From Chitinophaga pinensis (lineage in GTDB: Bacteria > Bacteroidota > Bacteroidia > UBA4408): DNA of 50,672 nt. Position 1 is the stretch's first letter. Each line of letters starts with the position of its first letter. Below the pieces are notes generated by a model, which saw only the letters and a program-made list of their open reading frames with translations, was not told the DNA's origin and did not search any database. Shown here one piece after another: positions 37,779 through 39,862 of this stretch. The stretch spans positions 1 to 50,672 of the forward strand of contig CAMBZU010000016.1 of NCBI GenBank assembly GCA_945872355.1, read 5' to 3'. Made by a program: the position numbers and the translations under genes.

Positions 37779-38939
37779 ATGACAAGAGTTTTAATTATTG
37801 ATGACGAAAGACCTATAAGGAACGCACTTCGCGACATTATTGAGTATGAAAAAATGCAAGTTGAAGATGCAGCTACAGGTGCCGAGGGATTAGAAAAATT
37901 AGAAAAAGATAAATTCGATCTTGTTTTGTGCGATATTAAAATGCCAGGAATGGATGGTATCGAGGTTTTAGAGAAAATTATGGAGAAGGGTTATGGTACG
38001 CCTGTAGTAATGATTTCTGGACATGGAACCATTGAAACTGCTGTAGAAGCAGTTAAAAAAGGTGCTTTCGACTTTATTGCAAAACCCTTAGATCTTAATC
38101 GTTTGCTTGTTACTGTTAGAAATGCACTCGATAAATCGGTAATTGTTAATGAAAATAAAGTACTAAAAAAGAAGATTAGTAAAACCTTTGAAATGGTTGG
38201 GAATTCTAATGCCATTAATCAAATAAAGGAAATGATTGAAAAAGTTGCCCCAACAGATGCGAGGGTGCTTATTACAGGTGGAAACGGTACTGGAAAAGAG
38301 CTAGTTGCACGGTGGCTTCATGAAAAAAGCAACAGATGTAATTTCCCAATTGTGGAAGTAAATTGTGCGGCTATTCCTTCTGAACTTATTGAAAGCGAAT
38401 TGTTTGGTCACGAAAAAGGCGCCTTTACTTCTGCTGTTAATCAACGTAAAGGAAAGTTTGAACAAGCAGAGGGCGGAACCTTATTTTTAGATGAAATTGG
38501 CGACATGAGCCTTTCTGCCCAAGCTAAAGTTTTAAGGGCTTTGCAAGAAAATAAAATATCAAGAGTAGGTGGTGAAAAAGAGATTAAAGTAAATGTTAGA
38601 ATTGTAGCCGCTACAAATAAAAACTTAAAAGAAGAAATTCAAAAAGGAAATTTTAGAGAAGATTTATTTCATCGTTTAAGCGTAATTCCTATACATGTAC
38701 CTTCATTAAATCAACGAATAGAGGATATACCATTATTGGCCGATCACTTTATAAAAGTATTAAGTGAGGAGCACGGTATGACAAACAAAAAGCTTACAAA
38801 GGAAGCCGTTGCCGCACTTCAAAAGATTGATTGGACAGGAAATATAAGAGAATTTAAAAATGTGATTGAACGACTGCTCATCTTATGCGATAAAACAATT
38901 ACCGATAAAGATATTAAGCAATACGCAAGCAAAAATTAA
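37779..38939 (+). CDS. Sigma-54-type response regulator lacking a DNA-binding domain
   Basis: A 386-residue NtrC-family protein. The receiver domain (1-120) has Asp8/Asp9, phospho-acceptor Asp52 and Lys102. The AAA+ domain has Walker A GGNGTGKE (167-174) and Walker B LFLDEIG (235-241). The sigma-54 contact loop reads GAFTSA (214-219) instead of GAFTGA. The C-terminal AAA+ lid is present (WTGNIREFKNVIERLLIL), but the protein ends about 20 residues later, with no Fis-type helix-turn-helix. It may activate sigma-54 RNA polymerase from solution, as reported for some DNA-binding-less activators. No histidine kinase is adjacent. It starts 6 nt after the Ppx/GppA gene. Confidence 0.92.
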   Translation: MTRVLIIDDERPIRNALRDIIEYEKMQVEDAATGAEGLEKLEKDKFDLVLCDIKMPGMDGIEVLEKIMEKGYGTPVVMISGHGTIETAVEAVKKGAFDFIAKPLDLNRLLVTVRNALDKSVIVNENKVLKKKISKTFEMVGNSNAINQIKEMIEKVAPTDARVLITGGNGTGKELVARWLHEKSNRCNFPIVEVNCAAIPSELIESELFGHEKGAFTSAVNQRKGKFEQAEGGTLFLDEIGDMSLSAQAKVLRALQENKISRVGGEKEIKVNVRIVAATNKNLKEEIQKGNFREDLFHRLSVIPIHVPSLNQRIEDIPLLADHFIKVLSEEHGMTNKKLTKEAVAALQKIDWTGNIREFKNVIERLLILCDKTITDKDIKQYASKN

Positions 38940-38948
38940 TTCTGCAGC

Positions 38949-39179
38949 TTATTTTTCTGTGCAAGTTACTGTAGCTCCATTGTCAACAGAAGCATCAGCA
39001 TTTACTTTTTGACGATAATTATCTAATTCTTTTTTATTGCCACATTGCTCAGGATAGGCTTTACTTGAGTCTTTTCCTAAGTACTTGTATGAATAAGAGC
39101 ATGTGCTGCATTTGGTGCATGATGCAAAAATCATAGAGGTAATAACTGCTGCGGCGAAAAATGTAAATATGTTTTTCAT
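38949..39179 (-). CDS. Tiny Cys-rich lipoprotein (paralogue 1 of 3)
   Basis: A 76-residue lipoprotein: signal peptide, lipobox Cys21 (MIFASCTKC), then Cys24, Cys27, Cys46 and Cys73. It shares with its two neighbours the pattern C-x-K-C-x2-C, a mid-chain Cys followed by a charged helix (CGNKKELDNYRQ), and a Cys three residues before the end. The four non-lipid cysteines suit two disulfides or a metal site. No known domain is recognised. It is convergent with the response regulator gene (9 nt between them). Three such genes in a row indicate local duplication. Confidence 0.75.
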   Translation of the reverse strand: MKNIFTFFAAAVITSMIFASCTKCSTCSYSYKYLGKDSSKAYPEQCGNKKELDNYRQKVNADASVDNGATVTCTEK

Positions 39180-39246
39180 TGATGATAGATTTTTTTTGAG
39201 AAATAATAATTTGATTAAAATAAAATATTTAGTGTTGGATGTTAAG

Positions 39247-39480
39247 TTAAAATAATGTGGTCTTGCGTTCTGTGCATTTTACTTTGTTACCCGGATTTAC
39301 CGTGCCTTCCATAAATAAACGATATTCATCTATTTCTTTTTTCTTTCCGCATGTTTCTGGCCATTGTAATTCCTTGTCTCCAACAGCATTAATTTCGGTG
39401 CATTCCACACATTTATGGCAAGCGCTGTTGAGCAACAGTGAGGTCATTAAAGTTAAAAAAACAATAGATTTATTTTTCAT
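39247..39480 (-). CDS. Tiny Cys-rich lipoprotein (paralogue 2 of 3)
   Basis: A 77-residue lipoprotein with lipobox Cys21 (LLNSACHKC) and cysteines at 24, 27, 44 and 69. The CGKKKEIDEYR segment (44-54) is close to the matching part of paralogue 1. It has a short C-terminal extension after the last Cys (TERKTTLF). It lies 5 nt downstream of paralogue 3, so those two are one transcription unit; the gap to paralogue 1 is 67 nt. Function unknown. Confidence 0.75.
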   Translation of the reverse strand: MKNKSIVFLTLMTSLLLNSACHKCVECTEINAVGDKELQWPETCGKKKEIDEYRLFMEGTVNPGNKVKCTERKTTLF

Positions 39481-39485
39481 TTATT

Positions 39486-39704
39486 TTAGTCTTTATCTAA
39501 ACAAGTGGCAGTAGTGCCATAGCGCTGAGCTTCATCAGAAACTACCTTCTTAAAAGCATCAATATCTTTTGTTCTCTTACTGCAATAGTCAGCAGAATAT
39601 GCTTTAATACCTGGTGCTGCATAATTGCAAGTAACACATTTTTCGCATGAGCTAAAAAGCAATGCACTCACACCAAAAGCTAAAATCAACTTCATTAATT
39701 TCAT
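39486..39704 (-). CDS. Tiny Cys-rich lipoprotein (paralogue 3 of 3)
   Basis: A 72-residue lipoprotein with lipobox Cys20 (LLFSSCEKC) and cysteines at 23, 26, 41 and 68. It is the most diverged of the three (mid-chain CSKRTKDIDAFKK) but keeps all five Cys in the same order. It is the first gene of the cluster on the minus strand. A second ATG four codons in (MKLMKL) is possible but changes little. Function unknown. Confidence 0.75.
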   Translation of the reverse strand: MKLMKLILAFGVSALLFSSCEKCVTCNYAAPGIKAYSADYCSKRTKDIDAFKKVVSDEAQRYGTTATCLDKD

Positions 39705-39862
39705 TGTTAGTTTAAATTTTCGTTGCTAAAATAGAAAAAACAATTAAATAAAATCTATTTTATTGTTTAATTTATATTTACTCGCCATTCAATAACTTAT
39801 CTTATTGATTACATTATGATAAATATTGTTGCCTTTAGCATATAAAATAATGCTTAGTATCT

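Follow-up and report, generated by a model that had tools for sequence, protein, structure and literature searches.

Among described systems, the MauE/MauD system for the maturation of methylamine dehydrogenase (MauE, PF07291) bears a likeness to the genes considered here. For methylamine dehydrogenase of Paracoccus, it has been speculated that MauE takes part in forming the disulfides (PMC7794033, which cites van der Palen 1997). In that system a small cysteine-rich periplasmic protein is encoded along with a membrane protein of the MauE type and a thioredoxin-like partner, and the same elements recur next to some relatives of the genes studied here. The differences from that system are that, in the present case, MauE and thioredoxin form one polypeptide, that the small proteins are lipoproteins without known kinship to methylamine dehydrogenase, and that the gene triplet from which this analysis started has no MauE neighbour.

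Other points of comparison are small lipoproteins. Coliphages have small, disulfide-bearing lipoproteins that shield receptors, such as Llp of phage T5. The members of the PG1828 family (NF050142) are likewise small lipoproteins of Bacteroidota, and this model gives weak matches to 10 of 36 diverse members of the family described below. The match to the product of gene A covers residues 1-23, i.e., only the signal peptide, and its score of 14.2 bits is below the cut-off, which is 50; assignment to the PG1828 family was rejected.

The genes in question are three consecutive lipoprotein genes in a 50,672-nucleotide stretch of Chitinophaga pinensis DNA (hereafter, the window). They are a set within a large, undescribed lipoprotein family that is common in the class Bacteroidia. 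The even number of non-lipid cysteines in nearly all profile hits strongly supports, if indirectly, a role of these residues in structural disulfides.

The triplet, its neighbours and its counterparts in the genus

The three genes lie on the minus strand and are read in the order C (39704-39486), B (39480-39247), A (39179-38949). Gene C, the first of the triplet, encodes a 72-residue lipoprotein with its lipid cysteine at position 20, followed by the KC-xx-C group, a mid-chain cysteine and a C-terminal cysteine. Gene B (77 residues) begins 5 bp past the stop codon of C, and gene A (76 residues) lies 67 bp downstream of B. Given the shortness of these gaps, a single C-B-A transcript is likely. 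The AT-rich leader of gene C (39705-39760, minus strand) contains the segment TATTTTAG approximately 20-30 bp before the ATG; judging by eye, this could be a promoter-like element of the Bacteroidota type, and a similar T-rich element was seen, again by eye, in relatives.

Lipoproteins were recognized by a short n-region with Lys or Arg, a hydrophobic stretch and, no later than residue 30, a lipobox whose last residue is Cys. All three products start with MK, continue with a hydrophobic stretch and carry a lipobox (FASC in A, NSAC in B, FSSC in C). The signal peptidase II lipoprotein features are conserved in all homologues. In gene A numbering, the cysteines are the lipid C21, C24, C27, the mid-chain C46 and C73, and their order is identical in A, B and C. 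The three proteins share the C-x-K-C-x-x-C start, a charged helix of the form K/R-x-x-[DE]-[LI]-D-x-[YF] after the mid-chain cysteine, and a last cysteine 3-8 residues before the C-terminus. The open reading frames and cysteine order given in the preliminary description, namely three minus-strand genes for proteins of 72-77 residues with five cysteines in common, were thus found at the coordinates above.

Pairwise identity is 36% between copies 1 and 2 and 36% between copies 1 and 3. The triplet copies recover one another in a search of the genome's proteins (E 1e-7 and 1e-5), their order is kept throughout the genus and they are the sole matches of a cysteine-rich lipoprotein detector in the window; their resemblance is therefore not due to chance. 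When only the three sequences are aligned, the mid-chain cysteine of copy C falls one column out of register; in alignments of 18 or 36 sequences all five cysteines are invariant, the 36 diverse members having been chosen partly by cysteine pattern. The earlier proposal that the cysteines are under selection is supported.

The triplet has the same gene order in each of the genus's four genomes. Orthologues within the genus are 71-75% identical for A, 56-61% for B and 64-68% for C (gene C profile match, E 2e-31), and each gene matches its own orthologues far better than it matches the other two. The paralogues are each conserved between species, as expected from the old duplication that had been surmised from the window. 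The comparison of copy number suggested at that stage also revealed that the remaining four genomes of the taxonomic family have one or two members each and that, in one genome of the genus (G003), the triplet has been relocated and is present twice. The two G003 copies (L133:13789-14522 and L135:14007-14740) have unrelated flanks. They are 97% identical over 735 bp, and the identity extends no further than the initiation codon of C on one side and the termination codon of A on the other. The triplet thus seems to move, or to get converted, as a unit. About three quarters of random changes are non-synonymous. The mature parts of the two copies differ by 8 synonymous and 0 non-synonymous changes, a pattern which suggests either that selection acts on the mature protein or that the copies have undergone gene conversion. 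A dN/dS comparison between species was set aside, as dS is saturated.

On the downstream side, gene A is followed, after 9 bp, by the end of a convergent gene (37779-38939, plus strand) for a sigma-54 activator with a receiver domain (PF00072 and PF00158). In this protein the usual GAFTGA motif reads, by eye, GAFTSA. Three of the genus's four genomes, as well as one genome of another genus (G007), have the lipoprotein genes next to the sigma-54 regulator. In G003 the site beside the regulator is empty. The convergence noticed at the outset is correct, as is the type of regulator. A functional link does not follow from it: the regulator gene is convergent and does not stand beside the triplet in the fourth genome, so its position provides no evidence for such a link. 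On the other side, 158 bp upstream of gene C and on the same strand, lies a gene for a DUF3817 integral membrane protein (PF12823; 39863-40153, minus strand), which is retained in three of the four genomes of the genus.

Distribution of the lipoprotein family

Homologues were found in all eight genomes of the taxonomic family to which the window belongs. A profile built from 18 members was run against 60 Bacteroidia genomes, sampled evenly across the class, and identified relatives in 30 of them (E <= 0.01), with up to 10 matches per genome. The homology of the mature domains was assessed after removal of the signal peptide and the lipid cysteine, by comparison with shuffled sequences in which every cysteine was held in place. 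Outside the window's taxonomic family, 32 of 84 mature domains exceed the best of 1680 such shuffles and 46 exceed the 1% level. Membership in the window-type family was judged by the C-x-K-C-x-x-C start, the mid-chain and C-terminal cysteines, and a similarity of the mature part that extends beyond cysteines and signal peptide; the five invariant cysteines and the comparison with shuffles support it. One locus (L113:6021-7145, in genome G461) contains four window-type lipoproteins in tandem, each with six non-lipid cysteines.

The family, which the preliminary description did not recognise, is not covered by the profile libraries searched: Pfam, NCBIfam and PHROGs returned weak matches only and no family at cut-off or with a convincing E-value. 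Similarly, the sequence search against PDB gave only weak matches below cut-off, and a literature search found nothing on this lipoprotein family. A phylum-wide scan, in which few candidates were scored per genome, yielded almost nothing, a result that reflects the sensitivity limit of the scan and not absence.

Cysteine parity, predicted fold and place in the cell

The lipid cysteine was assigned by profile column across 102 profile hits, which were not preselected on cysteines. Among these, 99 carry non-lipid cysteines in even number (four in 64, six in 30 and eight in 5), a count that covers related sequences and is not convertible to a probability. The three exceptions are L043, whose open reading frame is interrupted by a stop codon, and L084 and L087, seeming non-members with two cysteines only. 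A C-terminal CxC is present in 26 of the 30 six-cysteine members versus none of the 64 four-cysteine members. In single-domain six-cysteine members the second new cysteine falls either in the helix (14 cases) or in strand 1 (11 cases). The eight-cysteine members, together with three of those with six, are longer chains resembling two tandem domains; L072, L073, L112 and L148, all long and with eight non-lipid cysteines, have this appearance of tandem domain duplicates. Because cysteines have been gained in pairs, and at more than one place, disulfides are favoured over a metal site or free thiols. Even counts and paired gains strongly, albeit indirectly, support the view that the cysteines form structural disulfides, in line with one of the suggestions originally made for these proteins.

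An AlphaFold2 model of the gene A product has a mean pLDDT of 81, with values of 86-92 from residue 21 onward. The model has strands at residues 23-33, 36-41 and 45-47, a helix at 49-63 and a final strand at 70-75. The hairpin turn at residues 34-35 sets residue 24 opposite residues 45-46. This suggests a bond between Cys24 and Cys46, leaving Cys27 to pair with Cys73; on the strength of the model, we propose these as the putative disulfides. Searches with the model (Foldseek, VIA-align), a weak test, gave no match at E <= 0.001; the best Z score, 4.5, was obtained with generic strand-strand-helix-strand partners.

In Bacteroidota, export of lipoproteins to the cell surface is signalled by acidic residues, of the C-X-K-(D/E)2 or S-D-D type, at positions +2 to +6 (PMC5080379), a rule established in other orders than that of the window. 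In A, B and C the sequence is C-x-K-C-x, with Lys at +3 followed by Cys in place of acidic residues, and two or more acidic residues at +2 to +6 occur in only 3 of 102 members. The surface location initially considered is thus not supported, and the lipoproteins are predicted, by a rule taken from other orders, to face the periplasm.

MauE-thioredoxin fusions and the possible function of the lipoproteins

Comparison of gene neighbourhoods showed that small cysteine lipoproteins adjoin a gene for a MauE/DoxX membrane protein (PF07291) with a fused C-terminal thioredoxin-like domain (MauE-Trx). The thioredoxin-like part has an invariant CxxC and a proline, Pro277, in the cis-Pro position, and matches thioredoxin-superfamily entries in PDB with E-values down to 5e-4. 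The N-terminal half matches NF045576, the model of the BT_3928 family of MauE-DoxX proteins, at a score far under cut-off (60 versus 250 bits). A small cysteine lipoprotein gene is found near 22 of 30 MauE-Trx genes, nearly always on the same strand and within 100 bp. Four of the eight exceptions are cut by a contig end, which leaves 22 of 26 genes with an intact upstream flank, from 13 families. The detector has a low background: of its roughly 30 matches in 302 kb, almost every one is a member on which a fetched locus was centred.

Most of the lipoproteins beside MauE-Trx are of a look-alike type, named here after its SCKKDYTCTC segment. They are like the window family in size, lipobox, number of non-lipid cysteines (four) and predicted strand-strand-helix-strand order; they differ in that they lack Cys24 and Cys46, having instead a CxC and a cysteine in the helix. 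Homology between the two groups, though possible, is not claimed here because the signal peptide carried the match: the probability of 96% obtained with the signal peptide fell to 0.2% without it, and the scores of the mature parts lie within the range of the cysteine-fixed shuffles. Were the two groups homologous, the joint absence of Cys24 and Cys46 and the presence of equivalents of Cys27 and Cys73 would fit the pairing proposed above. Foldseek, also a weak test in this case, gave no match at E <= 0.001 with a look-alike model. At one locus (L114:7095-7457), adjoining a MauE-Trx gene, the SCKKDYTCTC-type domain is fused behind two Asp-Asp-Gly-Ser-Cys repeats.

Window-type relatives, confirmed by their mature part, are directly beside MauE-Trx in two genomes (G445 and G475) and adjoin the look-alike gene of MauE-Trx clusters in three more (G422, G443 and G473); these genomes represent three families in all. 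The window triplet itself is without such a neighbour. Elsewhere in the same genome are two MauE-Trx genes (L202:9136-10284, on contig C31 of G000, and G000:C115:4486-5406), one of which is followed by a look-alike small cysteine lipoprotein gene cut by the contig end. Across 99 genomes, the presence of window-type lipoproteins and that of MauE-Trx are weakly associated (Fisher p 0.05). MauE-Trx cannot be the sole oxidase, since many genomes with the lipoprotein family lack it.

The neighbourhood of MauE-Trx in several families, together with a C-x-x-C beside the membrane anchor in every member of the 36-member alignment, could also be read to mean that the lipoproteins are redox partners, one cysteine pair of which cycles between thiol and disulfide and exchanges electrons with a thioredoxin-like enzyme, for example MauE-Trx. 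This appears unlikely. Around the CxxC just a Lys is conserved and conservation elsewhere is low; the four cysteines are spread along the chain, and further cysteines have been added in pairs at other places, as for structural bonds. Moreover, the look-alikes linked to MauE lack Cys24 of the CxxC.

Tandem paralogues, multiple copies per genome and, in G003, a whole triplet that has moved and been duplicated would suit small, fast-changing, disulfide-stapled lipoproteins that confer immunity or exclusion at the level of the envelope, where they would block either a toxin or the receptor of a phage; the receptor-shielding lipoproteins of coliphages offer a precedent. We regard this role as improbable: no toxin, secretion or phage gene was recognized beside the triplet or the class-level members, no relative was found among IMG/VR viral contigs, and the presence in every genome of the taxonomic family, along with purifying selection on the mature part, fits a resident function. 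Most improbable is a metal carrier, also among the early suggestions, in which the CxxC and the two further cysteines would provide the four ligands of a zinc-ribbon- or rubredoxin-like site, since parity disfavours it, six- and eight-cysteine members and paired gains fit disulfides better, A, B and C have one CxxC each instead of two CxxC knuckles, and no match to a metal-binding family was above cut-off in Pfam, PDB or the fold searches.

We consider it rather probable that the triplet encodes lipid-anchored, disulfide-stapled miniproteins of about 55 residues that face the periplasm and are oxidised by a periplasmic thiol oxidase, with MauE-Trx as the best candidate. As the lipobox implies, the precursors would be exported by Sec and lipidated on the first cysteine. 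For the mature chain a strand-strand-helix-strand fold is predicted, which two disulfides, putatively Cys24-Cys46 and Cys27-Cys73, would lock. The lipid anchor would probably sit in the outer membrane, with the protein facing the periplasm. Oxidation may be carried out by a periplasmic thiol oxidase, for which gene neighbourhood, by analogy with MauE and MauD, makes the MauE/DoxX-thioredoxin fusion the best candidate. Our guess is that the folded miniproteins most likely bind a partner protein of the envelope.

A broader proposal is more tentative, and we find it somewhat doubtful. Bacteroidota may possess a dedicated maturation line, in which a MauE/DoxX-thioredoxin oxidase encoded beside its clients staples a large, undescribed set of envelope miniproteins; the window triplet would be one such set, served in trans. 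The chemistry of the family members is probably ordinary. The family is common in Bacteroidia, is found in arrays and has no name in the libraries searched, and the even-cysteine rule assigns a chemistry to it. The adjacency of MauE-Trx to some relatives was unexpected and constitutes a first testable lead to the role of these lipoproteins; the link may provide an entry point to periplasmic disulfide formation in Bacteroidota.
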